Shown here: in pieces, positions 24,290 through 41,662 of the stretch
How the letters are laid out: every line of letters begins with the position of its first letter
How positions within the stretch are numbered: position 1 is the stretch's first letter
From: an uncultured Alphaproteobacteria bacterium
GTDB taxonomy: Bacteria > Pseudomonadota > Alphaproteobacteria > HIMB59
Assembly: GCA_902521485.1 (NCBI GenBank)
Contig: CABYRQ010000001.1
Span: 248,001 to 312,000 of the forward strand
Direction of reading: 5' to 3'
DNA: 64,000 nt
Notes under the pieces: model-generated
What the model was told of the DNA's origin: nothing
Databases searched by the model: none
The model's input: only the letters and a program-made list of their open reading frames with translations
Program-made: the position numbers and the translations under genes

Positions 24290-25294
24290 TTAATCAATAT
24301 TCTCCATCCTCCCACTTCTGACAGATTTATAGGCAGTTTCTGCTAAGAGAAGTGCTCTTCTTCCGTCCTCAAAGCCAACAGATACAGGCTTTTTTTCCAA
24401 AATTGTTTCGACAAATGAGCTTATTGAATTCATATAGGACTCCTGATATCTCTCAATAAAAAAATTTAAATAGGGCTCACTCTTATCAACAAACTCTGAA
24501 TTGTATTTTTTCAATTCATGTGGCTTTCTATTTTCAGATATAACCATCCCTTTACTTCCAAACAACTCAACTCTTTGATCGTATCCATAAGTTGCTGATC
24601 TAGAGTTGTTTATGTGACATTGTTTCCCCGAGGCTGTTTCCATTATAATCATCAAGGTGTCACTATCATTTAATTCAGATTTTATTTTTGGATCTATTAA
24701 AGCATTAGAGATTGCAAAAACTTTAACTGGCTCTTCACCAAGCATAAAACGGGCTAAATCAAAATCATGAATTGTCATATCTCTAAATTGTCCACCAGAC
24801 ACTTTTAAATAATCCCAACTTGGCAGACCTGGATCTCTAGATGTAATCAGACATTGATGAAGCTCACCAATTTCACCATTAATATAAGATTTTTTTGCAG
24901 CCTGATGACCAGGGTCAAATCTTCTATTAAAGCCTAATTGGATTGGAACTTTATTACCTTCAAGTCTTTTTGAAAACTCATTGACTTTTTTAATATCGAG
25001 ATCAATAGGTTTCTCACACAAAACAGGTTTTTTTGATGCAACAGATCTCTCTATGAAATCAATATGTGTATTTGTAGGGGAAGATATAAGAACAGCATCA
25101 ATATCATTATTGTTAAAAATATCATCAACATTTTCCACAGCACGTACGTTTAAATCATTTGATACTTTTTTTGCAAATTCTTCATTTGGGTCATAAATGC
25201 ATACTAAATTTGTCTGTTCATGGAGTTGAATATTCTTAGCATGCATTTGGCCAATTCGCCCGCATCCAATAACTGCAATGCTAACTTTTTTCAT
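24290..25294 (-). CDS. iolG: Inositol 2-dehydrogenase (Gfo/Idh/MocA family)
   Basis: Oxidises myo-inositol to 2-keto-myo-inositol (scyllo-inosose) with NAD. The 334-residue protein has the Rossmann motif VIGCGRIGQMHAKN, the catalytic-Lys strand PVLCEKPID, LGFNRRFDPGHQAAK and the DMTIHDFDLARFML helix with the conserved Asp/His, all characteristic of IolG. It is divergent from iolE across 116 bp that contain a 17-bp palindrome and -10 boxes on both strands. TATAAT at 25303-25308 is 8 nt before the ATG, so the leader is at most 1-2 nt. Presence of iolE, iolB, iolC and iolJ nearby supports the call. Confidence 0.88.
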   Translation of the reverse strand: MKKVSIAVIGCGRIGQMHAKNIQLHEQTNLVCIYDPNEEFAKKVSNDLNVRAVENVDDIFNNNDIDAVLISSPTNTHIDFIERSVASKKPVLCEKPIDLDIKKVNEFSKRLEGNKVPIQLGFNRRFDPGHQAAKKSYINGEIGELHQCLITSRDPGLPSWDYLKVSGGQFRDMTIHDFDLARFMLGEEPVKVFAISNALIDPKIKSELNDSDTLMIIMETASGKQCHINNSRSATYGYDQRVELFGSKGMVISENRKPHELKKYNSEFVDKSEPYLNFFIERYQESYMNSISSFVETILEKKPVSVGFEDGRRALLLAETAYKSVRSGRMENID

Positions 25295-25302
25295 ATTACA
25301 GA

Positions 25303-25308
25303 ATTATA
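25303..25308 (-). promoter_or_regulatory. -10 box for iolG (near-leaderless)
   Basis: A perfect TATAAT on the minus strand lies 8 nt before the iolG ATG. The palindrome centred at 25345 is 37 bp upstream of its first base. Confidence 0.5.
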
Positions 25309-25336
25309 GTATTCTTAAAATTTTAGAAATAAAAAA

Positions 25337-25353
25337 AAATTCATTTTGAATAA
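25337..25353. promoter_or_regulatory. Putative inositol-regulon operator, site 1 (iolG/iolE)
   Basis: AAATTCATTTTGAATAA matches the ATATTCA-N3-TGAATAT palindrome at the core ATTCA-TTT-TGAAT. Its centre (25345) lies 41 bp upstream of the first base of the iolE -10 box (25386-25391) and 37 bp upstream of the iolG one. Two better copies occur at 28854 and 33648. Confidence 0.6.
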
Positions 25354-25385
25354 AATTTAAGTATTCTTTAAAAGGTTTATTTATC

Positions 25386-25391
25386 TATAAT
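25386..25391 (+). promoter_or_regulatory. -10 box for iolE
   Basis: A perfect TATAAT lies 19 nt before the ATG, followed by AGGAGGGG as ribosome-binding site. No good -35 box is seen, which fits a promoter needing an activator bound at the upstream palindrome. Confidence 0.5.
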
Positions 25392-25410
25392 CTATTCATA
25401 GGAGGGGTTT

Positions 25411-26322
25411 ATGAAAGCAAAATTGGGAATAGCGCCTATAGCATGGTCCAATGATGATTTACCTGAACTTGGAGGAGAGACTTCTTTGGATACCTGCCTT
25501 AGTGAGTCAAAACTTGCTGGATTTACAGGTGTGGAAACTGGTGGAAAATTTCCAAAAACTCCTGAAAAACTTGGTCCGATTTTAAAAAATCACCAACTAT
25601 ACTTGGCATCAGGGTGGTATTCAGGAACTGTGCTAGATAATGACCTAGAAAATGAGAAAGATAAAGTTCTTCAACAACTCACTCTCTTCAGAGACCTAGG
25701 CGCAGCTGTTTTAGCATATGGAGAAACATCTGGAACTATCCAAAATATTAGACAAGCTCCATTAAACACAAAAAGAAAAATACATAGTGAGGACTTTAAA
25801 GAGTATGGAAGAAAACTAACATTATTTGCAGAATTTTGTGCAGATTTTGGTGTGCCAATTTCATTTCATCATCACATGGGTACAGCGATTGAGACTGAGG
25901 ATGAGCTTGATAAATTGATGAACCACACAGGTGAGGCAGTAAAAATCTTATTTGATACAGGCCATATGACCTTTGCAGGAGGCAACTCTTTGAGAGTAAT
26001 AAATAAATATGCAAAAAGAATAAATCACTTTCATGCTAAAGACATTCGCTCTAAGGTTGTAAATGATTTAGATCGATCAAAAAAAAGTTTTTTAGATTTT
26101 GTGTTAGAAGGGGCTTTCACAGTACCTGGAGATGGAAATATTAATTTCAAGGAAGTAGTTGAGGCATTATCAAATAATAATTACGAGGGATGGTTCATTG
26201 TCGAGGCAGAGCAAGATCCAGCCAAAGCAAACCCATTTGAATATGCTAAAATTGGAAATAAAGAACTTGTAGAGTGTTTAAGTATGTATGGATATGAAAT
26301 AGAGGATTATATAGATGAATAG
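25411..26322 (+). CDS. iolE: Inosose dehydratase
   Basis: Dehydrates 2-keto-myo-inositol to 3D-(3,5/4)-trihydroxycyclohexane-1,2-dione. The 303-residue xylose-isomerase-like barrel starts with the IolE hallmark GIAPIAWSNDDLPELGG. Further motifs are FTGVETGGKFP, PISFHHHMGTAIET, ILFDTGHMTFAGG, NHFHAKDIRS and WFIVEAEQDP, which supply the metal-binding Glu, Asp, His and Glu. It starts after AGGAGGGG and overlaps the following SDR gene by 8 bases. The -10 box and palindrome upstream tie it to the regulon of the wHTH-SBP protein. Confidence 0.9.
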   Translation: MKAKLGIAPIAWSNDDLPELGGETSLDTCLSESKLAGFTGVETGGKFPKTPEKLGPILKNHQLYLASGWYSGTVLDNDLENEKDKVLQQLTLFRDLGAAVLAYGETSGTIQNIRQAPLNTKRKIHSEDFKEYGRKLTLFAEFCADFGVPISFHHHMGTAIETEDELDKLMNHTGEAVKILFDTGHMTFAGGNSLRVINKYAKRINHFHAKDIRSKVVNDLDRSKKSFLDFVLEGAFTVPGDGNINFKEVVEALSNNNYEGWFIVEAEQDPAKANPFEYAKIGNKELVECLSMYGYEIEDYIDE

Positions 26323-27136
26323 TATTAAGGGAAAGTTTGCACTAGTGACTGGAGGAACACAAGGTTTAGGAGCAGCAATTGCGAAAAATTTTGCCGATAG
26401 CGGAGCCGAAGGTGTTGTCACAATTGGCAGAAAAGAAGATAAAGGAAATCAGGTAGCAAAAAAAATTCAAGATGAAACTGGATGTAAAGTAATTTTTGTA
26501 AAAACAGACCTTGGAGAGGTCCATGAGTGTAGAAATGCAGTTTCAGTTGCCAAACAAGAATTTGGGAGATTGGATGTTCTTGTAAACGCTGCCGGTATTA
26601 CTGATAGGGGAGATATTGTTAATACGAGCGAAGAACTGTTTGATAAAATGATTGGCACCAACTTAAAAGGCCCTTATTTTCTGATACAAGATACAGTGAA
26701 AATTATGATTGACAAAAACATAGAGGGTTCAATTATTAATATTGGATCTGTGGCAGCTATGACTGGCCAACCATTCATATCAACTTATTGTGTATCAAAA
26801 GGGGCACTTGCAACATTAACAAGGAATACAGCATTCGCTTTGTTAAAAAATAAAATTAGAGTTAATCAGTTAAATATTGGTTGGATGGCTTCAGATGGAG
26901 AACATGAGATACAAACAAAATATCATGGTGCCTCAGAAGATTGGTTAGAAGATGCTGGTAAAGCTCAACCATTTGGAAGGTTGCTTGATCCAAAAGAGGT
27001 AGCTAAGGCAGTTACATTTTTAGCATCTGATGACTCAGGTATGATGACAGGTTCTGTTGTGAACTTTGATCAGTCAGTATGGGGAGGATATCCTTTTGCA
27101 CCTCCTCAGCCTGCAGAAAAAATGGAAATAAAATAA
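26315..27136 (+). CDS. SDR-family oxidoreductase in the inositol locus
   Basis: Short-chain dehydrogenase of 273 residues with TGGTQGLG, NAAGITDRG, the catalytic Ser in NIGSVAAM and YCVSK. The C-terminus (DQSVWGGYPFAPPQP) is longer than usual and is probably subunit- or substrate-specific. It overlaps iolE by 8 bases, so it is made with IolE and probably acts on an inositol isomer or a keto-inositol. SDRs of this type accompany iol genes in other alphaproteobacteria, but the reaction is not known to me. It ends one base from the opposing regulator gene. Confidence 0.75.
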   Translation: MNSIKGKFALVTGGTQGLGAAIAKNFADSGAEGVVTIGRKEDKGNQVAKKIQDETGCKVIFVKTDLGEVHECRNAVSVAKQEFGRLDVLVNAAGITDRGDIVNTSEELFDKMIGTNLKGPYFLIQDTVKIMIDKNIEGSIINIGSVAAMTGQPFISTYCVSKGALATLTRNTAFALLKNKIRVNQLNIGWMASDGEHEIQTKYHGASEDWLEDAGKAQPFGRLLDPKEVAKAVTFLASDDSGMMTGSVVNFDQSVWGGYPFAPPQPAEKMEIK

Positions 27137-27137
27137 T

Positions 27138-28823
27138 TTAGTTTAAATATTTTTCAGCACTTTGTTGACAACTCTTTAATGTAGTCTCCAAATCCTTATT
27201 CAAAAAAATATACTCATAAATTTTATGACCAACATCTTCTATAATATTTGAATAGGTTGGTAGAGGGTATCTTGCCCATTCTATAATTTTTTCCTCCTTT
27301 TCCATTTTATCAATTTCATTAAATATTGGACTTAAAGCTCTCACTTCAGGATCATTAACGACACTAAAAACGGGAGATGATAAACTGCCATGCTCTATAT
27401 AATATTTTATAAATTCAGGAGAGACAAAATTTCGAATATTTTTCATAACAAAAGGTATTTTTTCTGGAGAAATATTTGAGGGTATACCTAATGAAAAACC
27501 ACCTATCGGAGATACTTGAAAAGAGGAATTTCCAGCAGGTCTAGGTAAATAACCAGTTTTCTTATATGCGGGTGAAGCCTCATTTAGTTCAAACAAATGT
27601 GCTCTACTACTCCAATTCATTGCCATAGCTGATTTACCCTGACTATAATATTCAACACATTCATCATTGGAATGAGCAGATAATTCATTTGGCGAGTATA
27701 AAGTCAATTTTTTTAACATTTTAGCCGCTTCAAAAGATGCATCAGATAAAAAATTTGCCTTTAAGAGTATTTTTTCCACATCTAAATCATAAATATTTTT
27801 CCCAATATACCTAAGGTTTACATATGGTTTTCCATAATTTGCCATAGCTAAAATAAAACTAGTAGCAAGTGGTTGTCCTTTTTTAGCTGGCCAAGAAATA
27901 GGACTTTCTATCTGTTTGTCACCTTTTAATACCTCACAGGCATGGAGCAAATCCTGAAATGTTTTTGGTGGACTCAAAGCATATTTTTGAAAAATATCTG
28001 TTCTATAAAATAATAGATCAGGAATTGCTTCGATCGGTATCCCATAAAGTTTTTTATTAAAAGAACTTGATCTTACTCCTGAATAGTGAAAGTCATTCAA
28101 ATTTATACCAACATCTTTAACAAAACTATTTAATGGAAGAAGGCAATTTAATTTAGTTAACTGTCCAATCCATGGAATATTAAAAGCAACTATATCAAAT
28201 TTAGACTTTTTATTTGATGAGGAATTTTTAATTATTACATTAAGTAGTTTTTTTAAATCACCTTCAATAATAAGTTCAATTTCACAATCAAGTATATATG
28301 CAAAAAAATCAATATTCTTATTTATCACTTTAAATGTCGGATTATCATTGGCAAGAAAGTTAATTTTTTTGTATTTTTTATTTTGATTTATTATAACATT
28401 TGGTGCAGGTATGATATTTCCCGCAGAAAGAGAAGTTCCAAAAAAATAATTATCATTAAAATCACTATAACCTAAGTTCAAGGCCACTTCTTTTTTGATT
28501 GAAAGTAAATAATCCGTGAATTCTTTAATGAGATTATTACTTGGATGTATAGAAAACGATTTACCTGATTTTGTTTTTGATCTTTGTATTAATTTTTTTT
28601 CTTGAATAAGTTTTTTTACTCTTCTCAAACCAGTTGCAAATGGCAAACCTGATGCCTGGATGATACTCGTAGTAGTGGTAATTTTATTGTCTAGATGGTT
28701 GATAATAACATAAGAAAAAATATTCCAATCAGCGTCAATTGTTTTAATTGAAATAGATCTGTTAAATAAAAGTCTTGTTTTATCAACAAATTTTAAAAGA
28801 GTGGTAATCTCGTTTCTATTCAT
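27138..28823 (-). CDS. Winged-helix regulator fused to a MalE-type (family 1) solute-binding domain
   Basis: A 561-residue protein with no signal peptide, hence cytoplasmic. Residues about 31-110 form a MarR-like winged helix: TTTSIIQASGLPFATGLRRV as helix-turn-helix and KKLIQRSKTKSGKSFSIHP as wing. Residues about 150-560 read as a complete family 1 extracellular solute-binding protein: VIINQNKKYKKINFLANDN, IPIEAIPDLLFYRTDIFQKY, PPKTFQDLLHACEVLKG, VEYYSQGKSAMAMNWSSRA and GGFSLGIPSNISPEKIPFV. Transport-type proteins of this class are normally secreted. The combination suggests a ligand-sensing transcription factor. It is divergent from an importer SBP, with a palindrome between them. The -10 boxes place the palindrome over the promoter of its own gene, consistent with autoregulation. 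Confidence 0.75.
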   Translation of the reverse strand: MNRNEITTLLKFVDKTRLLFNRSISIKTIDADWNIFSYVIINHLDNKITTTTSIIQASGLPFATGLRRVKKLIQEKKLIQRSKTKSGKSFSIHPSNNLIKEFTDYLLSIKKEVALNLGYSDFNDNYFFGTSLSAGNIIPAPNVIINQNKKYKKINFLANDNPTFKVINKNIDFFAYILDCEIELIIEGDLKKLLNVIIKNSSSNKKSKFDIVAFNIPWIGQLTKLNCLLPLNSFVKDVGINLNDFHYSGVRSSSFNKKLYGIPIEAIPDLLFYRTDIFQKYALSPPKTFQDLLHACEVLKGDKQIESPISWPAKKGQPLATSFILAMANYGKPYVNLRYIGKNIYDLDVEKILLKANFLSDASFEAAKMLKKLTLYSPNELSAHSNDECVEYYSQGKSAMAMNWSSRAHLFELNEASPAYKKTGYLPRPAGNSSFQVSPIGGFSLGIPSNISPEKIPFVMKNIRNFVSPEFIKYYIEHGSLSSPVFSVVNDPEVRALSPIFNEIDKMEKEEKIIEWARYPLPTYSNIIEDVGHKIYEYIFLNKDLETTLKSCQQSAEKYLN

Positions 28824-28831
28824 TTAAAGGT

Positions 28832-28842
28832 ATTATATTATA
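28832..28842 (-). promoter_or_regulatory. Overlapping -10 boxes for the wHTH-SBP regulator gene
   Basis: Two overlapping TATAAT hexamers (28832-28837 and 28837-28842, minus strand) lie 8 and 13 nt before the ATG at 28823. The palindrome centred at 28862 is only 20-25 bp upstream of their first bases, covering the -35 region, a repressor-like position. Confidence 0.45.
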
Positions 28843-28853
28843 AATTCATTAAA

Positions 28854-28870
28854 ATATTCAATTTGAATAT
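28854..28870. promoter_or_regulatory. Putative inositol-regulon operator, site 2 (regulator/importer)
   Basis: ATATTCAATTTGAATAT is a perfect 7-3-7 palindrome between the regulator gene and the importer SBP gene. Its centre (28862) is 39 bp upstream of the first base of a GATAAT -10 box at 28901-28906 for the importer. It matches site 3 at 16 of 17 positions. Confidence 0.65.
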
Positions 28871-28873
28871 ATT

Positions 28874-28888
28874 AGAGATTAAATCTCT
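28874..28888. promoter_or_regulatory. Second palindrome beside operator site 2
   Basis: AGAGATT-A-AATCTCT is a perfect 15-bp palindrome three bases after the operator-like element and 12 bp before the GATAAT box. It has no counterpart at sites 1 or 3, so it may bind a different protein or be chance in AT-rich DNA. Confidence 0.35.
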
Positions 28889-28935
28889 TAATAAATCGTA
28901 GATAATTTCTTCAAAGGATATTTAGGAGGATCAAT

Positions 28936-29979
28936 ATGAACAAACTAATAAAAGTATTAGCTGTTCTAATGTGCTTTTCTTTCGGTTCAGCTAAAGCAGT
29001 TGAAATCGTGTCTTTTAATGCTGCGTCATCCGAAGCTTATGTTGGTGCGTTCGTTAAAGGTATTAAAGCTACAGCAGAGCAATATGGCTATGACATTACT
29101 GTTTTTGAAAACAACTATAACCAAGCAGAGCAAAACCAACAAGTAGAACAATACTTGTCAAGTGGTGCACTACCTGATGTATTTATTTGGTGGCCACCTG
29201 ATGCTGTTGCAGGTTTAGGTTCGTTAAGAAAGCTTGCTAAAACTGGAGTACCAGTTTTAAAAATCAATCAGTTACCTAATGAGCAAGATAAAGCATTCAT
29301 CTTTGGATATGCCGGACCAGATGATAGTCTTCGCGCTTATAACGCGGGTGAGATGATGGTTAAAGCTATGAAGATGAAACAAGCTGCTGGTGGAGATGGA
29401 TATAATGTAATTGCATTATCATATCCTCACTCTTACGGTGGATATGGCTTATCAATCAATGCTTTTAAACAAGCTATCGCTGGAACTGACTTAAATCTTA
29501 TCGGTGACATCGGTGAGGGATTTGGACAGGCTAACGGTTATAAAGGTGCAGCTAAGCTTATAGCTAAAGTTAAAGATCAGGGAATTCATTTCGTATATGG
29601 TATGGACGATGCGATCTTAACTGGTGGTATTAAGGCTTTAGAAGAAGCTGGTTATAATGTTGACTGGTATGCAGGTACTGGCAAAAGTGGCAGTGTAGAT
29701 AGTGATGCTGTCATTACAGTTGGTACTGTGTGTAACGGTGATAAGCAGATGATTACTGATGGAAAGCAATTTGGTACTACTCTACAGTCACCTCTTCATG
29801 AAGGTCAATTAGCTATAGCTCTTGTTAAAGAGTATATGGAGAACGGTAAGCTAGCAAACTACATTAACTTTACACCTAACCCTTCAGTGACTGGTGCCAC
29901 TATGGACTTCACAGCACTTAGAGGTTTTGATGGTAAGTTGTACGGTATCAACGAGCTTTGCTCAGGTGCTTGGGACTAA
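28936..29979 (+). CDS. CUT2 ABC importer periplasmic binding protein, probably for an inositol
   Basis: Periplasmic type I binding protein of 347 residues with a signal peptide cleaved after AKA (residue 21). The mature start is VEIVSFNAASSEAYVGAFVK. TTTAGGAGG precedes the ATG. It heads the importer operon SBP-ATPase-permease-permease, which carries a copy of the palindrome shared with iolE and with the iolCBJ operon. I therefore infer an inositol or a derivative as ligand, although the sequence alone does not show this. A terminator-like hairpin follows the gene, as for other binding-protein genes here. Confidence 0.78.
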   Translation: MNKLIKVLAVLMCFSFGSAKAVEIVSFNAASSEAYVGAFVKGIKATAEQYGYDITVFENNYNQAEQNQQVEQYLSSGALPDVFIWWPPDAVAGLGSLRKLAKTGVPVLKINQLPNEQDKAFIFGYAGPDDSLRAYNAGEMMVKAMKMKQAAGGDGYNVIALSYPHSYGGYGLSINAFKQAIAGTDLNLIGDIGEGFGQANGYKGAAKLIAKVKDQGIHFVYGMDDAILTGGIKALEEAGYNVDWYAGTGKSGSVDSDAVITVGTVCNGDKQMITDGKQFGTTLQSPLHEGQLAIALVKEYMENGKLANYINFTPNPSVTGATMDFTALRGFDGKLYGINELCSGAWD

Positions 29980-30006
29980 GTTTTAGTCTTTTCATAAAAA
30001 TTTTTA

Positions 30007-30035
30007 CACACAGGGAGCTATCCCTGTGTGTTTTT
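30007..30035 (+). terminator. Rho-independent terminator/attenuator after the importer SBP gene
   Basis: A 10-bp perfect stem (CACACAGGGA and its complement), GCTA loop and five T. It separates the SBP from its ATPase, so it should reduce expression of the downstream membrane genes. Confidence 0.85.
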
Positions 30036-30068
30036 AATAAATAAAAAAGGTGTACAATCTCTTTTAAT

Positions 30069-31577
30069 ATGTCCACAAATCCAATTCTTAAAATTTCAAA
30101 TGTTTCTCGGACTTTTGGAGCTATACAGGCTCTAAAAGAAGCAAATTTTGAGATAAATGAAGGTGAAATTATGGGACTAGTTGGAGAAAATGGAGCTGGT
30201 AAATCAACTCTTGTAAAAATTATAAGTGGATTTGACCCTGGTTTTAAGGGCAGCTATCAAATCAATAATAAAGAAGTAAAATTTGAAACGCCTTCACAAG
30301 CTGAGGAGTCTGGAATTGCTATTGCTCAACAAGAATTAAGCTTGATTCCTAATATGTCAGTTGCAGAAAATATTTTTCTTACTGGAGCTAAAGTAAAAAA
30401 ATTTGCCACTCTTAATACATTGGCAAAGATGGCACGCCCATATCTTGACCAAGTTGGATTAACTGAAGTAGACCCAACTACTAGAATAAATTTATTATCT
30501 GTTGGTGAACAACATTTGGTAGAAGTAGCTAGATTAATTTCGAGAGAAGCAAAAATTTTAATTTTAGATGAGCCTACAGCTGCGTTGGGTGAAGCAGAGA
30601 GTCGAAGAATTTTAGAAATGGTTGAGCGTCTTGCAGCAAATGGTAAATCAATAATATATGTAAGTCATAGACTGGACGAAATTTTTAAGATTACAAAAAG
30701 AATAACAATATTAAGAGATGGAGTAAGTCAAGGTATTCAAGAAACTAAAGATATTGATGTAAATAAACTAGTTGAAATTATGCTTGGAAGAGAATTGGCG
30801 AATATGTTCCCATCAAAAGCTGACCATATAAGTGATGATCCAAAATTAGAAGTAAAAGAACTTTGGCCTGATGGCGTTTTAGAGCCGGTTAGTTTTTCAG
30901 CTTTTAAGGGAGAGATACTTGGACTCTCTGGGCAACTTGGTAGTGGAGCAGGTGAAGTATTAGCCTCAATAGCAGGTGCACTTCAATCTAGATCAGGTTC
31001 ACTCACTTTGAACGGTGAAACCTTTTTACCCAAATCACCAAGTCACGCTATAAAGAAAAAAATTGCATATTGCTCCTCCGATAGAAAAAAAGATGGTCTT
31101 TTTCTTGGACGTCCAATATTTGAGAATTTAACCTCCCCAGCACTTGGTGCTATATCAAAATATGGTTTTAACTTTGGCAGTTCTGAGGATAATTATTCCA
31201 GAAATTTAGCAAAAGAGTTTTTAATTGATGTCAAAAGAATGCACGATGAGTCAGGTCTTTTAAGTGGCGGAAATCAACAAAAAGTAGCATTAGGAAAATG
31301 GCTTTCAATTAAGCCCGATGTATTGCTTGTGAATGAGCCGACAAGAGGTGTTGATGTTGGTGCTAAATCAGAGATATATCAAAGAATGAGAGAATTAGCA
31401 GCAAGAGGAATTACTATTATTTTTGCCTCTACTGATATCCAAGAAATCACGTATCTACCTGACAGGGTGATTACATTTTATAGAGGAATGATGATTGATG
31501 AACACCGATTAGAAAAAATTAAAACACCTGTTATTCTTAAAGAGATTACTGATCCATTTAACGAGACAAACCTATGA
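30069..31577 (+). CDS. CUT2 ABC importer ATP-binding protein, double domain
   Basis: ATPase of 502 residues with two domains. The first has GENGAGKST, LLSVGEQHLVEVARL as a variant signature, and ILILDEPTAALG. The second has the degenerate GQLGSGAGEVLAS, the canonical LSGGNQQKVALGKW and VLLVNEPTRGVDVGAK, where the Walker B Asp has become Asn. Such asymmetry is usual for the RbsA group, though the Asn is less common. It overlaps the first permease by 4 bases (ATGA). The start ATG lies 33 bp after the attenuator hairpin, with no strong Shine-Dalgarno sequence. Confidence 0.85.
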   Translation: MSTNPILKISNVSRTFGAIQALKEANFEINEGEIMGLVGENGAGKSTLVKIISGFDPGFKGSYQINNKEVKFETPSQAEESGIAIAQQELSLIPNMSVAENIFLTGAKVKKFATLNTLAKMARPYLDQVGLTEVDPTTRINLLSVGEQHLVEVARLISREAKILILDEPTAALGEAESRRILEMVERLAANGKSIIYVSHRLDEIFKITKRITILRDGVSQGIQETKDIDVNKLVEIMLGRELANMFPSKADHISDDPKLEVKELWPDGVLEPVSFSAFKGEILGLSGQLGSGAGEVLASIAGALQSRSGSLTLNGETFLPKSPSHAIKKKIAYCSSDRKKDGLFLGRPIFENLTSPALGAISKYGFNFGSSEDNYSRNLAKEFLIDVKRMHDESGLLSGGNQQKVALGKWLSIKPDVLLVNEPTRGVDVGAKSEIYQRMRELAARGITIIFASTDIQEITYLPDRVITFYRGMMIDEHRLEKIKTPVILKEITDPFNETNL

Positions 31578-32614
31578 GTGCTATCATCGAAAATAATCAA
31601 TTACCTTTTTCTGCAAAATTTTTGCAATTCTATAAGGATCGCACACTTCTTGCTATTTTATTGTCACTTTTTGCTGTGATGTTTATATATGGAATTTTTT
31701 TCACAGAAAATTACTTAACAATAACCAATTTTAAAGCAATTATCAGAGATGCAGCACTATATGGCATTATGGCTATAGGACTTACATTTGTAACTTTGTC
31801 AGGAAATTTTTTTTTATTGTCATTAAAAGAAACAGCATCAATTTGTGGTGTTACGTTTGCTATGGGTATGGCTACTGGTTTTGGATCACCGGATCTTGCA
31901 GGAAACTTTTTAGTTTCACTATTAGCTGCTTTAACAGTAGGTGTCGTAAGTGGAGTAATACAAGGATATTTTGTTGGAATGGGAGGCAACCCAATTGTAG
32001 TAACATTAGGTGGAGCAGGCATCTTATATGGTATTGGTGCATGGTGGAGTGATAACCTTGTAATAAACTTTACTAGGCCTCATGATGCAGAATGGCTAGG
32101 GACTGGTTCTTTTTTAGGTCTTCCTAGTATTACATGGTCATTTATTCTAATAGCCATTGCTGCTGAAATAGTTTTAAGACATACAAATTTTGGAAGGAAA
32201 GTTTATTTAGTCGGAGCAAACAAAGCTGCTGGAAAAGCCACTGGTCATGAAAATTTTTCCATGGCAATAATAGTTTTTACAATTTGTTCTGTTTGCTGTG
32301 CTTTTGTTGCAGTGGCTTTTGTTGCTCAAATGGATAGTGCTCAATCTAATTATTTTTCTGCAGAATTTGGATCTTCAGGTGATATGACAATACTCGTTAT
32401 AGCAACTGTCATGGTTGGTGGAAATTCAATAATGGGCGGTTATGGATCTACTTTAAGAACTAGTTTGGGAGCAATTTTTATTGCTATGGTTGATAATATG
32501 ATGGTTTTACAAGGATTTAATAGTGGACCTAGAATAGTTGGTGTGGGCTTAATGATCGTGTTTAGCATCATAGTTTTTGGTTTATTTGCTAAAGGAAGTA
32601 GGGCTCAGGAATAA
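31574..32614 (+). CDS. CUT2 ABC importer permease, first subunit
   Basis: Membrane permease of 346 residues of the BPD_transp_2 family. Motifs are GLTFVTLSGNFFLLSLKETA (a divergent version of the GIDLSVG loop), VGMGGNPIVVTLGGAGI, VYLVGANKAAGKATG and MVGGNSIMGGYGSTLRT. It overlaps the ATPase gene by 4 bases and the second permease by one base. Two different permease genes imply a heterodimeric channel. The loss of the usual DLS sequence in this subunit, kept in the second one, supports asymmetric roles. Confidence 0.8.
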   Translation: MSAIIENNQLPFSAKFLQFYKDRTLLAILLSLFAVMFIYGIFFTENYLTITNFKAIIRDAALYGIMAIGLTFVTLSGNFFLLSLKETASICGVTFAMGMATGFGSPDLAGNFLVSLLAALTVGVVSGVIQGYFVGMGGNPIVVTLGGAGILYGIGAWWSDNLVINFTRPHDAEWLGTGSFLGLPSITWSFILIAIAAEIVLRHTNFGRKVYLVGANKAAGKATGHENFSMAIIVFTICSVCCAFVAVAFVAQMDSAQSNYFSAEFGSSGDMTILVIATVMVGGNSIMGGYGSTLRTSLGAIFIAMVDNMMVLQGFNSGPRIVGVGLMIVFSIIVFGLFAKGSRAQE

Positions 32615-33648
32615 TGGAAAATTTTTTAAAAAAGATTACAAAAGATGTGGATCTCTCTTTTGCAATCTTATTATCATTTTGTGTTTATGTATTCTTTGCA
32701 ATTAATATAGAGGTTTTCTTTAGTCACAATATCAGTTTCGCTATTCTTGAAAGGTTTGCAGTTTTGGGCCTTGTAGGTTTAGCATTAACAATTTGTATAA
32801 TTGCTGGAGAAATTGATTTATCAATTGGGTCTAACGCGGCCCTGTGCGCTGTGATAGTTGTAAAATTAACAGACCCCTTAGGCGCCCCATTAGCGATGAT
32901 TATAGGACTTTCAGTTTCAACTCTAATTGGTGCAACACAAGGTTTTGTTATAGCTTTCATAAGAATAAGAGCGATTGTGATTACAGTTGGTACACTAATG
33001 TTGCTTAGAGGCGTGGCTTTACTAATTGCTGAAGAAAAAACAGTTATGTTAACTGATTTTAGAGTTCCTGATTTTATTACTACTAAAGTTTTAATGTATT
33101 TTTCACCTGCTAGCCTAACGGTTATCTTCATATTCATTTGTGTAGGAATTTTTATGCGTTACACAAAATATGGAAGAGAAATATATGCGATCGGTGGAGC
33201 AAGAAAAGAAGCACTCACTGCAGGTATACCTTTAAGACGCCCAATGATTATAGCCTTTGCGCTGTCAGGTTTTTGTGCTGGTTTTGCTGGAACTGTAATT
33301 GGTTTGAAATCAGGAACGGCTCAAGGTTTAGGACTGCAATACCTTCTTTTAGCAGGAACTGTTGCAGCTTTTGTTGGAGGTGTGAGTATACTAGGAGGAA
33401 AGGGTGGTGTTTTAGGAGCTGCTATCGGAGCTTTAACAGTTAATTTTTTAAATACTGGTCTCGTATTTTATGCACTTCAGGTTCATTTTGTTCAATTATT
33501 CACATCAGTGCTTTTGGTTATCGTTATAGTTTTTCAAACTATGTCTAGGGTATTTGACTCGCGGCAAGCTAGGAAAAGTCTGCTTGCCACAATTGATGAA
33601 CGAAAAACATCTTTGCTGGAAAAAAAGAGATCGGCTTTAGGTAGATAA
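32614..33648 (+). CDS. CUT2 ABC importer permease, second subunit
   Basis: Membrane permease of 344 residues with the canonical CUT2 segments LTICIIAGEIDLSIGSNAAL, RIRAIVITVGTLMLLRGVA, IYAIGGARKEALTAGIP and AFVGGVSILGGKGGVLG. It overlaps the first permease by one base and ends the importer operon. Its TAA stop touches the palindrome of operator site 3, so the following operon has its own regulated promoter immediately after this gene. Confidence 0.82.
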   Translation: MENFLKKITKDVDLSFAILLSFCVYVFFAINIEVFFSHNISFAILERFAVLGLVGLALTICIIAGEIDLSIGSNAALCAVIVVKLTDPLGAPLAMIIGLSVSTLIGATQGFVIAFIRIRAIVITVGTLMLLRGVALLIAEEKTVMLTDFRVPDFITTKVLMYFSPASLTVIFIFICVGIFMRYTKYGREIYAIGGARKEALTAGIPLRRPMIIAFALSGFCAGFAGTVIGLKSGTAQGLGLQYLLLAGTVAAFVGGVSILGGKGGVLGAAIGALTVNFLNTGLVFYALQVHFVQLFTSVLLVIVIVFQTMSRVFDSRQARKSLLATIDERKTSLLEKKRSALGR

Positions 33649-33664
33649 TATTCATTTTGAATAT
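33648..33664. promoter_or_regulatory. Putative inositol-regulon operator, site 3 (SDR-to-galM operon)
   Basis: ATATTCATTTTGAATAT is a 7-3-7 palindrome directly after the permease stop codon. Its centre (33656) is 39 bp upstream of the first base of the TATAAT box at 33695-33700, the same spacing as site 2. Confidence 0.65.
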
Positions 33665-33717: not shown

Positions 33718-34521
33718 ATGGATAAAGAGAGACTAAAAGGGAAAAATGTCCTTATTACAGGTGCTGCTCAGGGCATGGGTGCTGCAGTAGGAGAGCACTT
33801 TGCTGCCCAAGGAGCCAAAATTTGTCTAACAGATGTCAACCTTGACGGTTGTAAAGAGGTTGAAGAGAGAATTAGGTCAGCTGGAGGTGAGGCTATTTCA
33901 TGTAAAGTAGACGTGCGAAATCGTGAAGATCACGTAGCTGCTGTAAAAGCAACAGTTGAAAATTTTGGTAGTCTAAATGTTTCTATAAATAATGCTGGAG
34001 TAAACAAACCACTCTTCTTCATGGATATTACTGAGGAAAATTATGATTTTATTATGGATATAAATGTTCGAGGTGCTCTTTTAGGTATGCAAGAACAAGC
34101 CCGACAAATGATTAAACAAGGTAAACAAAAAGAACCATATAAAATTATTCATGTAGCTTCTATTTTATCCAGAGAAACTTTTGATGATGTTGTGGTTTAT
34201 GGAATGAGCAAACATGCCATAGCAGCTCTGATAAAAGGTGGTGCAAAAAGTTTAGTTGAGCATGGCATTACCGTTAATGGATATGGCCCTGGCGTAGTAA
34301 GAACAGAGCTATGGGAGCAATTAGATAAAGATTTAGTTGCAATTGGAAAATTTGACAAACCCGGAGAGTCAATGGACTCAATTGCAGAGAATATGATTTT
34401 GATGAAGAGGTATTCTTATCCTGAAGACGTAGTGGGCACAGCATCTTTTTTAGCGTCTAGTGAGTCTGATTACATGACAGGACAAATACTTATGATTGAT
34501 GGAGGGATGGTAATTCAATAA
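33718..34521 (+). CDS. SDR-family oxidoreductase, first gene of the large inositol operon
   Basis: Short-chain dehydrogenase of 267 residues with TGAAQGMG, NNAGVNKP, a catalytic Ser in HVASILSR, YGMSK and MIDGGMVIQ. GGAGGG lies 7 nt before the ATG. It is followed directly by the M24-like gene with no gap. The promoter carries the operator-like palindrome, so it belongs to the inositol regulon. It probably oxidises an inositol isomer or a ring intermediate; the exact step is unknown. It is the third SDR-type or Gfo-type dehydrogenase of the regulon, suggesting that more than one inositol stereoisomer is used. Confidence 0.75.
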   Translation: MDKERLKGKNVLITGAAQGMGAAVGEHFAAQGAKICLTDVNLDGCKEVEERIRSAGGEAISCKVDVRNREDHVAAVKATVENFGSLNVSINNAGVNKPLFFMDITEENYDFIMDINVRGALLGMQEQARQMIKQGKQKEPYKIIHVASILSRETFDDVVVYGMSKHAIAALIKGGAKSLVEHGITVNGYGPGVVRTELWEQLDKDLVAIGKFDKPGESMDSIAENMILMKRYSYPEDVVGTASFLASSESDYMTGQILMIDGGMVIQ

Positions 34522-35811
34522 ATGAGTGAACCTTCAATCATAAAACCTGAAGATATAAATCCAAATTACGATTGGCATAGAAGAGTGCCTTCTCATGGAA
34601 GGACAAATGTAGATTATGAAGAGAGAATTAATTTTCCTAGACTTCACAAATATCGACTAGGAAGAGCCAGAGAAGCTCTAAAAAATTCAAAAGCCGGTTC
34701 ACTCCTTTGTTTTGATAACAACAACATCCGATATCTCACAAGCACAGTTATTGGAGAGTGGTCAAGAGACAAAATATGTAGATATTCTCTATTAGCTCAA
34801 GATCATGATCCCGTGCTGTGGGATTTCGGTTCAGCGGCTAAACATCACCAATTATTTTCGCCTTGGCTTCCAAAAGAAAATTGGAAGGCAGGAATGGTAG
34901 GCCTGAGGGGTACGGTGCATCCTGATGCAGGATTAATGAAAAATGCCGCAAAAGAAATAAAGTCAATGTTAAATGAAAAGGGACTGGCAAATGAACCTGT
35001 AGGTGTGGATCTTGTTGAGCCAGCAATGATGTTTGCTCTTCAAGCAGAGGGTTTAGAGATAATTGACGGACAGCAAATTCTTCTTGAAGCCAGGGAAATA
35101 AAATCAAGAGATGAGCTAATGTTATTAAACCAGGCTGCATCGATGGTTGATGCAACTTATCATCAAATTTATGAGACTATGAAGCCAGGCGTTAGTGAAG
35201 CTCAAATAGTTGCTAATGCAAATAAGCTTTTATACGAACTTGGTTCGGATGATGTCGAGGCAATAAATGCCATTTCAGGTGAAAGATGTAATCCGCATCC
35301 ACATAATTTTACAGATAGAATTTTTAGACCTGGTGATCAAGCTTTCTTTGACATACTTCAATCTTATATGGGCTACAGGACCTGTTATTATAGAACCTTC
35401 AATATTGGAAGAGCATCAGACTCTCAAAATGATGCCTACAAGCAGTGTCGAGAGTGGCTAGACAAAGCCATTGAACTTGTAAAACCTGGAGTATCTACAG
35501 ATAAAATTGCATCAGTATGGCCGAAGGCTGAGGAATTTGGTTTTGCAAATGAAATGTCAGCATTCGCATTACAGTTTGGACATGGTTTAGGTTTGGCAAT
35601 TCATGAAAGACCAATAATCAGTAGATTGGTTTCAATGGACTCACCTGATGAAATTAAAGAAGGAATGGTTTTTGCTCTTGAAACCTATTGTCCTGCAAAA
35701 GATGGTTATTCTGCTGCGCGAATTGAAGAAGAATTGATTGTTACAGATAAAGGATGCCAAGTAATTTCCTTGTTCCCTGCTGAAGATCTACCTATTGCTA
35801 ATAAATATTAA
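34522..35811 (+). CDS. M24 (creatinase/aminopeptidase P-like) family protein with an altered metal site
   Basis: A 429-residue protein with an N-terminal creatinase-type domain (about 35-190) and a C-terminal pita-bread domain (about 195-425). Aligned by eye to the M24 ligand pattern, Asp277 (FFDILQ), His354 (FGHGLG), Glu387 (ALETY) and Glu402 (RIEEEL) are kept. The second metal Asp, normally in a HSDITRT-like segment, is Cys288 (RTCYYRT). A normal dinuclear peptidase site is therefore unlikely. M24 members also include creatinase and the DMSP lyase DddP, so a non-peptidase reaction is plausible. It lies between an SDR and a TPP enzyme in the inositol operon and overlaps the E1 alpha gene by one base. 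Confidence 0.7.
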   Translation: MSEPSIIKPEDINPNYDWHRRVPSHGRTNVDYEERINFPRLHKYRLGRAREALKNSKAGSLLCFDNNNIRYLTSTVIGEWSRDKICRYSLLAQDHDPVLWDFGSAAKHHQLFSPWLPKENWKAGMVGLRGTVHPDAGLMKNAAKEIKSMLNEKGLANEPVGVDLVEPAMMFALQAEGLEIIDGQQILLEAREIKSRDELMLLNQAASMVDATYHQIYETMKPGVSEAQIVANANKLLYELGSDDVEAINAISGERCNPHPHNFTDRIFRPGDQAFFDILQSYMGYRTCYYRTFNIGRASDSQNDAYKQCREWLDKAIELVKPGVSTDKIASVWPKAEEFGFANEMSAFALQFGHGLGLAIHERPIISRLVSMDSPDEIKEGMVFALETYCPAKDGYSAARIEEELIVTDKGCQVISLFPAEDLPIANKY

Positions 35812-36815
35812 TGGTAGATAAATTAAATGACGATATAGGAGAAGAGAAAAGACTTCAATTATGGGAAATGATGCTGAAATTAAGGTTAGTCGAAAAAAAA
35901 GCATATGATCTTTTTCTTCAAAATCTTATCAAAGGTACTAGCCATTTAGCTCTGGGTCAGGAAGCTATTGCAGGTGCCTTTGGAGTCGCCTTGAAACAAG
36001 GCGATTATACATTTTGCACATACCGTGGGCACGCACATACACTCGCAAGAGGATCCTCAATCGAAGGAGTTTTAGGAGAATTAATGGGTAGACAGTGTGG
36101 CTTGATGAAAGGTAAAGGAGGATCCATGCATCTTACAGATGTAGATAAAGGAGTTATGGGTTCATATGCTATTATAGGTGCTCATTTAACTATTGCCAAT
36201 GGAACTGCTTTGGCGTCAAAATATAATAAAACAAATGAGGTAAGCGTTTGCTTTTTTGGAGACGGTACTACGAATATCGGAGCATTCCATGAGGCATTGA
36301 ACATGGCAAAAATATGGAATTTACCCATAGTGTTTGTTTGTGAAAATAATTTATATATGGAATATACACCAATTCATGAAGTTACTGCTGTTGAGCACCC
36401 AGCTGCTGATAGAGCGGGTGCATACGATTTAGATAAAATTATTGTGGACGGAAATGATGCTGATGAAATGCTTAGAACAGCAGAAAAAGCTATTGCAAAA
36501 GCGAGAGAGGGTAAAGGTCCAAGTTTAATTGAAGCCAAGACTTATCGACATAGTGGGCATTCAAGAGCTGACCCAGGTAAGTACAGACCTGATGAGGAAG
36601 TAAAAGATTGGATGGAAAACAAAGACCCAATAAAAAATTATAGAGCAAAGTTATTAGATTTTAATATCAATGAAAAAATAATTTCTGAAATTGAGGAGAA
36701 AATTAAAGATCAAGTTGAAAAAGCAACTGAAATTTCCATGGCTTCTCCAATTCCGGAAATTAAAGAAATATATACTGATGTATGGGCTAATGGAGGTTCT
36801 GAGTGGCACAATTAA
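35811..36815 (+). CDS. 2-oxoacid/acetoin dehydrogenase-type E1 alpha subunit (TPP-dependent)
   Basis: Alpha subunit of a TPP-dependent E1, 334 residues. The TPP/Mg motif is GDGTTNIGAFHEALNMA ending in CENN, and TYRGHAHTLARG and KGKGGSMHL are signatures shared by pyruvate and acetoin dehydrogenase E1 alpha. The phosphorylation-loop region reads YRHSGHSRADPGKYR. It overlaps the M24-like gene by one base and the beta subunit by 13. E1 alpha of acetoin dehydrogenases cleaves acyloins and 1,2-diones. In this operon, where iolD is not seen, a role on a keto-inositol-derived compound is possible but unproven. Confidence 0.85.
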   Translation: MVDKLNDDIGEEKRLQLWEMMLKLRLVEKKAYDLFLQNLIKGTSHLALGQEAIAGAFGVALKQGDYTFCTYRGHAHTLARGSSIEGVLGELMGRQCGLMKGKGGSMHLTDVDKGVMGSYAIIGAHLTIANGTALASKYNKTNEVSVCFFGDGTTNIGAFHEALNMAKIWNLPIVFVCENNLYMEYTPIHEVTAVEHPAADRAGAYDLDKIIVDGNDADEMLRTAEKAIAKAREGKGPSLIEAKTYRHSGHSRADPGKYRPDEEVKDWMENKDPIKNYRAKLLDFNINEKIISEIEEKIKDQVEKATEISMASPIPEIKEIYTDVWANGGSEWHN

Positions 36816-37786
36816 CATACAGAGCAAGTGTTTCACTCGCTATAGCTCAATCCATGAGAAAAGATCAAAAAGTCTTTTTTATTGGTGAAGACGTAGGTGC
36901 TGCGGGCGGAGTATTTAAAGCGACGGTTGGTCTTTTAGAGGAGTTTGGAAAAGAGAGAGTCATGGATGCACCAATTTCAGAACAGGCGATTTTAGGTGCA
37001 GCTATGGGCGCAGCAATGACAGGCTTAAGACCAATAGCAGAAATAATGTTTTCAGATTTTTTAGCTGTTTGTTGGGATATTGTCGCAAATCAAATTGCTA
37101 AAACTAGATATATGTCAGATGGCCAAATCAACATTCCATTAGTCATTAGGACTGCAAATGGCGGAGGATCAAAATTTGGTGCACAACATTCTCAAAGTTT
37201 AGAGAATTGGTCTATGATGATACCAGGTTTAAAAGTAGTTGCACCAAGCTGCCCTAGTGATGTGTTGGGTTTGATGGATAGCGCTGTAAAGGACCCTGAT
37301 CCCGTTATATTTTATGAACATAAATCACTTTATGCATTTAAAGAAGAAATTGAACAAACTGATATATCCATTCCTATCGGGGAAGCTAATACGCTTCACG
37401 AGGGAAAAGATATTACTATTATTGGTTTAGCTTTAATGGCACAAAGAGCAAAAGAGGCTGCATTAATTTTGAAAGACAAACATGATATTAATGCAAAGGT
37501 AATCGATCTGAGATCTCTGGTGCCCCTAGATTTACAAACAATAAAAAAATCTGTAATCGAGACTGGTCATGTCTTGACAGTAGAAGAAAATCCAAGACTT
37601 TGTGGATGGGGAGCGGAAATATCATCTTTAATCTCAGAACATTGTTTTAAAAATTTAAAAGGTCCTGTCACTAGAGTAACTACACCACATGTACCATTAC
37701 CAAGTGCCGACATACTCGAAGATAATACAATTCCATCAGTGGAACTTATTGTAAATGAGGTTATAAAAAAACTAAAAGGAGAATAA
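36803..37786 (+). CDS. 2-oxoacid/acetoin dehydrogenase-type E1 beta subunit
   Basis: Beta subunit of the same E1, 327 residues. The conserved Glu of IGEDVGAAGGVFKAT, the RVMDAPISEQAILGAAMGAA segment and ADILEDNTIPSVELI at the C-terminus are typical. The domains are the pyrimidine-binding half and the transketolase C-terminal half. It starts 13 bases inside the alpha gene and ends two bases before the lipoyl-domain gene. Alpha and beta should form an alpha2-beta2 heterotetramer. No E2 catalytic or E3 gene is visible in the window, so reducing equivalents must be handled elsewhere or the complex is atypical. Confidence 0.87.
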   Translation: MAQLTYRASVSLAIAQSMRKDQKVFFIGEDVGAAGGVFKATVGLLEEFGKERVMDAPISEQAILGAAMGAAMTGLRPIAEIMFSDFLAVCWDIVANQIAKTRYMSDGQINIPLVIRTANGGGSKFGAQHSQSLENWSMMIPGLKVVAPSCPSDVLGLMDSAVKDPDPVIFYEHKSLYAFKEEIEQTDISIPIGEANTLHEGKDITIIGLALMAQRAKEAALILKDKHDINAKVIDLRSLVPLDLQTIKKSVIETGHVLTVEENPRLCGWGAEISSLISEHCFKNLKGPVTRVTTPHVPLPSADILEDNTIPSVELIVNEVIKKLKGE

Positions 37787-37788
37787 TT

Positions 37789-38016
37789 ATGGAAATAATA
37801 ATGCCATCCCTTGGAGAAACTGTTGACGAGGGAAAAGTAGTAAAGTGGCTTAAAAAAGTTGGAGATGAAATTAAAGAGGGAGATATCCTTTGCGAAGTTG
37901 AGACTGATAAGACAGCTGCTGAGATACCTTCAACAGTTAATGGAAAATTAACACAGATAATTGCACAAGAAGGAGATACGATCCCTGTAGGTGGTAAAAT
38001 TGCCACTGTAGAATAA
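37789..38016 (+). CDS. Stand-alone lipoyl-domain protein
   Basis: A 75-residue protein that is one lipoyl domain and nothing else. It starts MEIIMPSLGETVDEGKVVKW and carries the attachment lysine in VETDKTAAEIPS. There is no peripheral-subunit-binding or acyltransferase domain, unlike normal E2 subunits of about 400 residues. A stop codon ends it cleanly (GGKIATVE), and the next ATG 25 bp later belongs to an aldehyde dehydrogenase, so it is not a frameshifted E2. AAAGGAGAA precedes the ATG. It probably accepts an acyl group from the adjacent E1, acting as a free carrier. Confidence 0.85.
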   Translation: MEIIMPSLGETVDEGKVVKWLKKVGDEIKEGDILCEVETDKTAAEIPSTVNGKLTQIIAQEGDTIPVGGKIATVE

Positions 38017-38040
38017 GAATTAAAACTGTTATAAATATTT

Positions 38041-40699: not shown

Positions 40700-41662
40700 A
40701 TGAAATTTGATAATACAAAAAAAATTCTTGTAATAGGGAGAGCAGGATTAGATATTTATCCAGAGCCACCCGGTACAAAAATCTCCGATGTAAATAACTT
40801 TTCTTCTCATTTAGGGGGCTCGGCGGCAAATACTTGTGTTGCTCTATCGAACTTGGGTGTCAGCACTGATTTACTTACTTGTATATCTGACGATGCAATC
40901 GGAGAATACATAATTAACAAACTTAATGAATTCAAAGTTGGTGTAGTACACTGCAGAAAAGTCAATAAATCATTTCAAACACAAATAGCTGTTGTTGAAA
41001 CTATTTTAAACAATAACCAATCTATTCTTTACAGAAGTAATCCTTGTGATCTGCAACTTAATAAGGAGGATATTAATAAAATTAATTTCAATAATTACTC
41101 TGCTGTATTTATCTCTGGAACTGCGCTTTCTGGAGAACCTTCAAGGAATGCTGTTTTTGTTGCCTCAAAACTAACTTCAGATCTCAAGATACCATTAATA
41201 ATCGACCTTGATTATCGGCCTTACAACTGGGAGTCTGATACAATCAAATCTGATGTTTACAAGGAAATTATGAATGAAATGGATATTATCATTGGAAACG
41301 ATTTAGAATTTAATGTGGCTGATAATTCAACAAATGGACTTGAATTAGCAAAAGTGTATATTAAAAAAAAACCATCAGTGATTATCTATAAAATGGGCGA
41401 AGAGGGATCCAAAGTATTTACTAAAGAAAATGAGAGCCAATACGGGACATTTAATGTCGAAGCTATTAAACCTACCGGTGCAGGCGACGCATTCAATGGA
41501 GGTTTTATAAGTTCCCTATACAATGGCCTTAGTTTAGAGGATGCAGTAATTCGGGGTTCCGCAAATGCTGCAATAGTTGTAACAAGAGTAGGATGTTCCT
41601 CAGCTATGCCCAATAATCAGGAATTAGAAAAATTTATTAACCAAAATCAAAAGGAGTTATAG
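40700..41662 (+). CDS. iolC: 5-dehydro-2-deoxygluconokinase
   Basis: PfkB-family kinase of 320 residues that phosphorylates 5-dehydro-2-deoxy-D-gluconate in inositol catabolism. Motifs are the early GRAGLDIYPEPPGT typical of IolC, LGGSAANTCVALSNLGV, IDLDYRPYNWES, and the catalytic PTGAGDAFNGGF. It is directly followed by iolB (stop and start adjacent) and iolJ, which settles the function. The AAGGAG ahead of iolB lies within its last codons. Confidence 0.9.
   Translation: MKFDNTKKILVIGRAGLDIYPEPPGTKISDVNNFSSHLGGSAANTCVALSNLGVSTDLLTCISDDAIGEYIINKLNEFKVGVVHCRKVNKSFQTQIAVVETILNNNQSILYRSNPCDLQLNKEDINKINFNNYSAVFISGTALSGEPSRNAVFVASKLTSDLKIPLIIDLDYRPYNWESDTIKSDVYKEIMNEMDIIIGNDLEFNVADNSTNGLELAKVYIKKKPSVIIYKMGEEGSKVFTKENESQYGTFNVEAIKPTGAGDAFNGGFISSLYNGLSLEDAVIRGSANAAIVVTRVGCSSAMPNNQELEKFINQNQKEL

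Follow-up and report, generated by a model that had tools for sequence, protein, structure and literature searches.

Regulators of the LysR type combine a winged helix-turn-helix (wHTH) with an effector domain of the type II binding-protein fold. As described in a preprint (PMC13060122), SgrR of E. coli and DsvR (Vca0578) of V. cholerae are transcription factors with an N-terminal helix-turn-helix (HTH) and a C-terminal SBP_bac_5 domain, and SgrR regulates sugar-stress genes as well as repressing its own expression. The window analysed here, a whole stretch of 64,000 nucleotides from a HIMB59-type alphaproteobacterial genome, encodes a protein of similar layout, hereafter called REG (a working label for the 561-aa ORF 28823-27138 on the minus strand; Table 1), its closest functional analogues being SgrR and DsvR. 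As far as that preprint describes them, both resemble REG in joining an N-terminal HTH to a C-terminal solute-binding domain in a (for REG, predicted) transcription factor, but their C-terminal domain belongs to SBP_bac_5 and that of REG to SBP_bac_1, and synteny and lineage differ too. The SgrR_N domain (PF12793) was absent from REG in the Pfam search and was matched by one of 19 REG family members (E = 0.16), while SBP_bac_5 had no match in REG at E ≤ 10 and did not rank in the 25 families that the 19 members matched most often. As both defining domains fail, REG falls outside the SgrR family.

REG resembles LysR-type regulators in its wHTH followed by a type II-fold domain, in its position divergent from the putative target operon, and in a promoter layout that would be compatible with self-repression plus activation. 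It differs from them in its sensor, a full-size family-1 solute-binding protein (SBP) of ~410 residues, and the LysR domains HTH_1 and LysR_substrate were found neither in REG (Pfam) nor among the 25 families most matched by the family members. A type II sensor within a regulator had been considered unusual in the original prediction, a view that does not hold beside LysR and, in the preprint's account, SgrR and DsvR; the unusual part of REG is the SBP family (family 1), not the type II fold. An exact-word search of the open-access literature found no relevant description of HTH-SBP_bac_1 fusions.

Table 1. Features of the REG locus and of related loci. Positions refer to the window unless a locus is named.
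Feature	Position	Strand	Details and evidence
Inositol genes by REG	24290..27136		iolG 24290-25294 (-), iolE 25411-26322 (+), SDR 26315-27136 (+)
Third operator (predicted) AAATTCATTTTGAATAA	25337..25353		between divergent iolG and iolE; fourth-best matrix site in window
REG (regulator gene)	27138..28823	-	561 aa, ATG start; single ORF in relatives too
REG sensor domain (family-1 solute-binding, MalE-type)	27141..28376	-	residues 150-561; Pfam, PDB, family profile
REG linker	28377..28487	-	residues ~113-149; between both domain profiles, variable in family alignment
REG winged-helix DNA-binding domain (predicted)	28488..28823	-	residues 1-112, core ~31-95; family profile and Pfam/PDB matches
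Promoter-like TTGAAT-18-TATAAT for REG	28832..28861	-	consensus scan 10/12; -35 hexamer inside operator
Main operator (predicted) ATATTCAATTTGAATAT	28854..28870		perfect 17-bp palindrome, REG/importer divergent promoter
Second palindrome AGAGATTAAATCTCT	28874..28888		present in window
-10-like TAGATAAT for importer operon	28899..28906	+	~40 bp from operator centre; by eye
CUT2-type sugar importer	28936..33648	+	binding protein 28936-29979, ATPase 30069-31577, permeases 31574-32614 and 32614-33648; Pfam
Second operator (predicted) ATATTCATTTTGAATAT	33648..33664		upstream of SDR/M24/E1 genes; second-best matrix site in window
Catabolic genes	33718..39498	+	SDR 33718, M24-family 34522, E1 alpha 35811, E1 beta 36803, succinate-semialdehyde-DH-like (SSADH-like) 38041; Pfam/NCBIfam
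Further inositol-type genes	40700..43332	+	iolC-like 40700, iolB-like 41663, class II aldolase 42502; NCBIfam
Variant palindrome TCCG-nnn-CGGA	L059 5838, L061 5830, L062 5922, L106 6657		divergent promoter

The ORF was recovered at the coordinates given for it originally, and lies on the minus strand with an ATG start. Its C-terminal part matched Pfam SBP_bac_1 (E = 2.4e-19, residues 201-450, 70.9 bits against a cut-off of 26) and SBP_bac_8 (5.5e-17, residues 205-492), and SBP_bac_1 was matched by all 19 family members at E ≤ 1. Sequence matches in the PDB included the trehalose/maltose-binding protein (TMBP) 1eu8 (5.1e-16), MalE3 6dtq (6.5e-11, from residue 166) and SmoF 7nbz (2.3e-10), and the family C-domain profile spanned REG residues 150-561, in agreement with the complete family 1 protein proposed for residues ~150-560. 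What REG shares with MalE, TMBP (1eu8) and SmoF is the C-terminal domain, which the Pfam and PDB sequence matches clearly assign to family 1; unlike them, it is fused to a wHTH, has no visible signal peptide, and adjoins a CUT2-like importer that possesses its own Peripla_BP_4 receptor (Pfam). This receptor has a type I fold, so the REG sensor is not a copy of it.

No signal peptide was visible in REG on the basis of N-terminal conservation and hydropathy: the conserved winged-helix N-terminus starts at residue 1 across the family, and the maximum 15-aa hydropathy within the first 50 residues was 0.77, which supports the absence claimed earlier. Signal peptides were present, as judged by eye, in all 24 unfused relatives examined; hydropathy alone failed to split the fused and unfused groups, with high values for the fusions L059 (2.07) and L118 (2.5, over-extended ORF).

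Within the sensor domain, W218, P263, R274, D276, G441-G442 and P448 were invariant in all 32 family members, and with W311 included the set was kept in 30-32 of the 32. In the 1eu8 alignment, REG residues N215, W404 and F443 fell on D70, W257 and W295, which we take to be the sugar contacts of TMBP. As polar and aromatic pocket positions are kept in this way, the ligand pocket seems functional. These residues also bear on the reading that REG binds DNA but carries its sensor domain as a passive dimerisation or protein-protein module, not as a small-molecule receptor. Contacts of this kind occur in the maltose system, where the importer component MalK binds MalT, and the REG-adjoining importer has a receptor of another family, so that a further receptor would not have to recognise the ligand of the first. 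A passive module fits poorly with the near-complete retention of the conserved residues (W311 included) and with the alignment of aromatic and polar positions with the TMBP contacts, and we consider it unlikely.

The evidence for the N-terminal domain came mainly from the family. A Pfam search with REG alone gave no HTH match up to E = 10, and the NCBIfam match of REG to TcaR/MarR was weak and far under the cut-off (E = 0.0067, residues 3-85). Among the 19 family members (alignment A2; alignment A4 comprised 18 of these, the near-duplicate L040 being left out), 11 matched MarR_2 at E ≤ 1 (best E 2.3e-4), with 15.5-21.5 bits in the five matches shown (8 members scanned) against a cut-off of 27, and one, a distant Paraburkholderia REG, passed the cut-off of HTH_IclR (2.2e-7, 31 bits against 22). 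The N-terminal family profile searched against the PDB matched TubR best (1.3e-4), followed by a MarR/SlyA protein (0.0019). About 110 N-terminal residues were conserved across orders, with H43, R67 and P94 invariant in 32 of 32 members and T64 in 31. In an AlphaFold prediction of residues 1-118 (10 sequences), the succession of helices and two short paired strands fit a winged helix, though the pLDDT of 49 was too low to rely on, and full-length REG reached a pLDDT of 35 with a shallow alignment of 16 near-identical sequences.

The winged helix is thus convincing because of the family-level matches, the match of REG itself being weak. The MarR-like character attributed to it was seen in family-level matches (MarR_2, with the listed scores under its cut-off, HTH_IclR, TubR, MarR/SlyA), and REG alone remained under the curated cut-offs. 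REG resembles MarR and IclR regulators in that its N-terminal family profile matches their HTH, and differs from them in the SBP that forms its C-terminal part and in its own scores under their cut-offs. The two domains, both assigned by profile, would place a DNA-binding and a ligand domain in one chain, as in one-component winged-helix transcription factors.

Within the family group of REG's own genome, 52 genomes of one genus whose records presumably represent marine single cells, 28 had a match to REG at E ≤ 1e-30, as did 9 of the 10 that were at least 90% complete; several copies were truncated by contig ends. Thirty-four plasmid records, from Rhodobacterales, Rhizobiales, Azospirillaceae and Burkholderiales, matched REG along at least 80% of its length (22.5-33.2% identity), and none of the viral contigs scanned had a REG relative. 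The plasmid relatives were annotated as 'extracellular solute-binding protein' (26 of 34), 'periplasmic component' (one) or 'hypothetical protein' (one), with six lacking a feature or annotation, and none was annotated as a regulator. REG relatives are widespread and, on their predicted function, misnamed. Full-length fusions were detected in 9 of 386 genomes sampled from the class and 7 of 397 sampled from the phylum (G000 and G196 in both), including one from outside the Alphaproteobacteria (G547). With at most three candidates scored per genome, the full-length fusions had E ≤ 3.6e-191 and the unfused SBPs E ≥ 1.6e-61 in these two samples. Nothing lay between, and a secreted, unfused form in close relatives, which had been named as an observation that would speak against the prediction, was not found in them. 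In the C-domain tree, which carried long-branch and composition warnings and included fusion domains cut with extra N-terminal residues (L107, L065), a branch (98/97) parted the 32 fusions from the 24 unfused SBPs, a grouping such as a single origin would give.

The names given to the relatives, the SBP_bac_1 match and the weakness of REG's own HTH match would all suit an ordinary periplasmic binding protein with a misplaced start codon, its N-terminal extension being merely winged-helix-like. This reading conflicts with the conservation of ~110 N-terminal residues across orders (H43, R67 and P94 among them), with the wHTH profile matches, with the lack of a visible signal peptide in REG compared to the 24 unfused relatives, and with the conserved palindromes adjoining the gene (see below), and is regarded as extremely improbable. 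A fused protein that stays in the cytoplasm is the reading retained here.

Two variants of the gene were observed. The G041 genome encoded a second REG paralogue (~41% identical; L108 11261-12961) a few genes away, directly upstream of the SDR operon and adjoining the second operator, in this one genome. In G015, a 146-aa ORF (L115 7400-7840), some kb from CUT1-type importer genes, resembled the N-terminal winged helix of REG alone (45-47% identity), and is possibly a DNA-binding-domain-only relative or a remnant.

REG sits between the iolG/iolE/SDR genes and the divergent CUT2 importer, which bears out the inositol-region setting beside an importer described originally. The iolG and iolE assignments were above the NCBIfam cut-offs (9e-120 and 3.2e-118), while the iolC-like and iolB-like genes scored under the curated ones (295.6 against 300 bits and 156 against 205, respectively). 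In Rhodobacterales, the importer receptor gene is divergent from REG and is followed by SDR, M24, E1 alpha, E1 beta, E2 and SSADH genes, an order found in Marinovum, Tritonibacter, Pacificitalea, strain SC52, Phaeobacter and others; the HIMB59-type and Rhodobacterales loci thus harbor the same kinds of genes beside REG at ~30% protein identity. In the Rhodobacterales plasmids viewed, no gene annotated iol was present within 7 kb of the REG cluster. The Rhodobacterales importer receptor was matched at E ≤ 1e-40 in 19 plasmid records, 12 of them from closely related Phaeobacter, and these coincide with the 19 top-ranked plasmid records for REG; an importer cluster lacking REG, which could have served as a control, did not turn up on plasmids. 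The window's own importer receptor had no plasmid match at E ≤ 1e-30.

Elsewhere the neighbours changed. Another REG subgroup adjoined varying sets of genes encoding a 2,3-butanediol dehydrogenase, YciI, Gfo/Idh, a Zn-dehydrogenase, an intradiol dioxygenase and a maleylacetate reductase. The Agrobacterium REG lay among Gfo/Idh, sugar-phosphate-isomerase-like and two importers' genes, and the Paraburkholderia REG was divergent from genes for a sugar receptor and an isomerase-like protein and from iolG. We infer that polyol/cyclitol catabolism is the theme shared by these neighbourhoods. The structure nearest to the Rhodobacterales importer receptor was 2ioy, followed by the CUT2 receptors 5hko, 4rs3 and 4rsm, which presumably have polyol ligands; the nearest solved relatives of the window's receptor were ribose-binding proteins (2fn9, weakly), which does not point to inositol. 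From the gene setting, an inositol-derived ligand for REG is plausible.

Several further observations concern the enzymes and intergenic regions of the window. The absence of IolD and its replacement by the E1 genes was considered and rejected, as an above-cut-off IolD match lay elsewhere in the genome (C1:148470); such matches were present in six of seven genomes. The E1 alpha/beta genes (35811-37786) and the SSADH-like gene form a conserved catabolic set by the importer in both HIMB59-type and Rhodobacterales loci. The M24-family protein (34522-35811) matched the 'Peptidase M24' structures 4s00, 4rzy and 4b28, which we take to be DddP DMSP lyases, over residues ~37-421 of 429, and also matched prolidases over its C-terminal half; it may be a pathway lyase or hydrolase rather than a peptidase. 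After the inositol region, 45298-48553 encoded an ABC pair resembling GldA/GldF, together with a 625-aa protein that had no NCBIfam match at E ≤ 1e-40. A stem-loop of 11 pairs with a T-run at 30006-30031, between the importer receptor and ATPase genes, is perhaps an attenuating terminator that raises receptor expression; such stem-loops were no more numerous over the region than expected by chance.

The palindrome at 28854, suggested earlier as a binding site, proved real and conserved. Its 15-bp core TATTCAAWTTGAATA was exact in nine of the ten HIMB59-type loci and had one mismatch in L126, the form common to these loci being TATTCAA-W-TTGAATA, and relatives with a 62-77% identical REG had kept the palindrome while its surroundings had changed. 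The core WATTCAAWTTGAATW occurred without mismatch at a single place per genome, always this promoter (six of six genomes). Allowing one mismatch, it was found at 11-21 places per genome, most of them outside the cluster, compared to 2-5 for a backward control; the window-wide count at three mismatches was not above chance (3 found, 2.07 expected). The ten main operators alone were then used to train a matrix for ranking sites, so that the main site is best by construction and the SDR and iol sites serve as tests. The site before the SDR operon was present in all ten loci, several of which are closely related and hence not independent, and ranked second in nine and third in L109. The iolG/iolE site was in the top four in five of the nine loci with both genes (window, L109, L110, L127, L128) and outside the top seven in the other four (L111, L125, L126, L129). 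Related palindromes thus lie at two or three promoters, and the one at 28854 is likely the operator of REG. The neighbouring palindrome AGAGATTAAATCTCT was rejected as an operator candidate; it is probably none, because it was not conserved in the four relatives compared.

In more distant loci, the palindrome took the form TATCCA-nnn-TGGATA (Rhodobacterales), and in several of them two palindromes were spaced 20-21 bp apart. In 16 loci, the promoter regions (5,946 bp) contained 25 instances of the pattern TYCANNNTGRA and the remaining 252,169 bp contained 22; dinucleotide-shuffled versions of these promoter regions had 0.65 on average (maximum 3 in 300). Three of these loci (L118, L057, L060) had no in-region site, and the L060 site, between REG and the next operon, was counted as elsewhere. 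A matrix trained on 20 HIMB59 sites placed the TATCCAnnnTGGATA-like promoter site above every other site of its 15-19 kb locus in 17 of 26 distant loci, second in L054 and L059, and third or lower in L060, L062, L063, L106, L065, L103 and L121. For L107 and L064, the divergent promoter of the cluster was used instead of the REG-adjoining one, a choice made after TYCANNNTGRA sites had been seen there; without these two loci, the site ranked first in 15 of 24. Region edges were set from an estimated REG start in L102, L104, L116, L118 and others, as the ORFs extend upstream, some regions take in the first REG codons, and L057/L058 and L102/L105 are close relatives, so not all loci are independent.

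A mostly rhizobial subgroup, lying near intradiol dioxygenase/maleylacetate reductase-type clusters, possessed TCCG-nnn-CGGA in four of five divergent promoters, with no other match anywhere in these four loci of 15-17 kb. This pattern was composed after the loci had been viewed in the matrix ranking. L063 lacked this variant, and L064, of the same clade, kept the ordinary type. The operator form of the subgroup is probably TATCCG-nnn-CGGATA, and the variant suggests a recognition change within the REG family.

Palindromes of this AT-rich type resemble the sites of several regulator families, and the one-mismatch copies elsewhere in the genomes would likewise agree with a regulator encoded elsewhere, REG being a mere neighbour. 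The motif nevertheless accompanies REG across differing neighbourhoods and plasmids, and all 19 plasmid records with the importer receptor have REG. Moreover, REG was the sole regulator among the identified genes of the conserved cluster (some ORFs were unlabelled), and an RpiR-type HTH_6 protein was found in none of seven genomes. Control by another regulator is accordingly judged very unlikely, and REG itself is taken as the protein that would bind these sites.

The arrangement of the divergent promoter (Table 1) suggests self-repression together with activation of the importer. The REG promoter is a lead only, because TTGAAT-18-TATAAT-type sites were no commoner over the region than in shuffles (35 against 34.4). 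On the importer side, TAGATAMT was present in the aligned promoters of eight of ten loci (not L109 and L126).

Taken as a whole, the comparative data make it highly probable that REG is a cytoplasmic one-component factor with a palindrome-binding head and a sensor for a polyol, a cyclitol or an intermediate, which controls the importer, the catabolic operon and, in some genomes, iol genes. The C-terminal domain would derive from a secreted family-1 (MalE-type) binding protein that lost its signal peptide, and the winged helix would bind palindromes of the form TATTCAA-W-TTGAATA, presumably as a REG dimer. Inside the cell, the C-terminal domain would bind a small polyol or cyclitol or a catabolic intermediate, and its Venus-flytrap closure could be passed to the DNA-binding head, changing DNA binding or the contact with RNA polymerase. 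The genes under REG control would be those of the divergent CUT2 importer, those of the SDR/M24/E1/SSADH operon and, in part of the HIMB59-type genomes, iolG/iolE. The logic may be LysR-like, with REG repressing itself from an operator over its own -35 and activating the importer from an operator at about -50.

A broader interpretation is offered tentatively, as one that may well prove wrong. The REG family could represent a distinct, mis-annotated class of one-component regulators that arose from one fusion of a winged helix with a secreted MalE-type protein, acts in a LysR-like manner, and relies on a fold unlike that of the importer's receptor to sense a polyol/cyclitol or inosose in the cytoplasm. 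In the streamlined HIMB59-type bacteria, where no RpiR-type IolR was found, it might have taken over the local control of inositol genes.

If the preferred reading is true, proteins deposited in databases as 'extracellular solute-binding protein' would be transcription factors, and sugar/polyol-uptake regulons would thus have been overlooked in marine and plant-associated bacteria. The predicted operator and the enzyme cluster make the regulator claim directly testable. Since MalE-type pockets are well understood, the family could also yield modular polyol/cyclitol biosensors. It would further offer a clear-cut example of how a receptor for transport became a sensor for gene control, comparable to SgrR but drawn from another SBP family.
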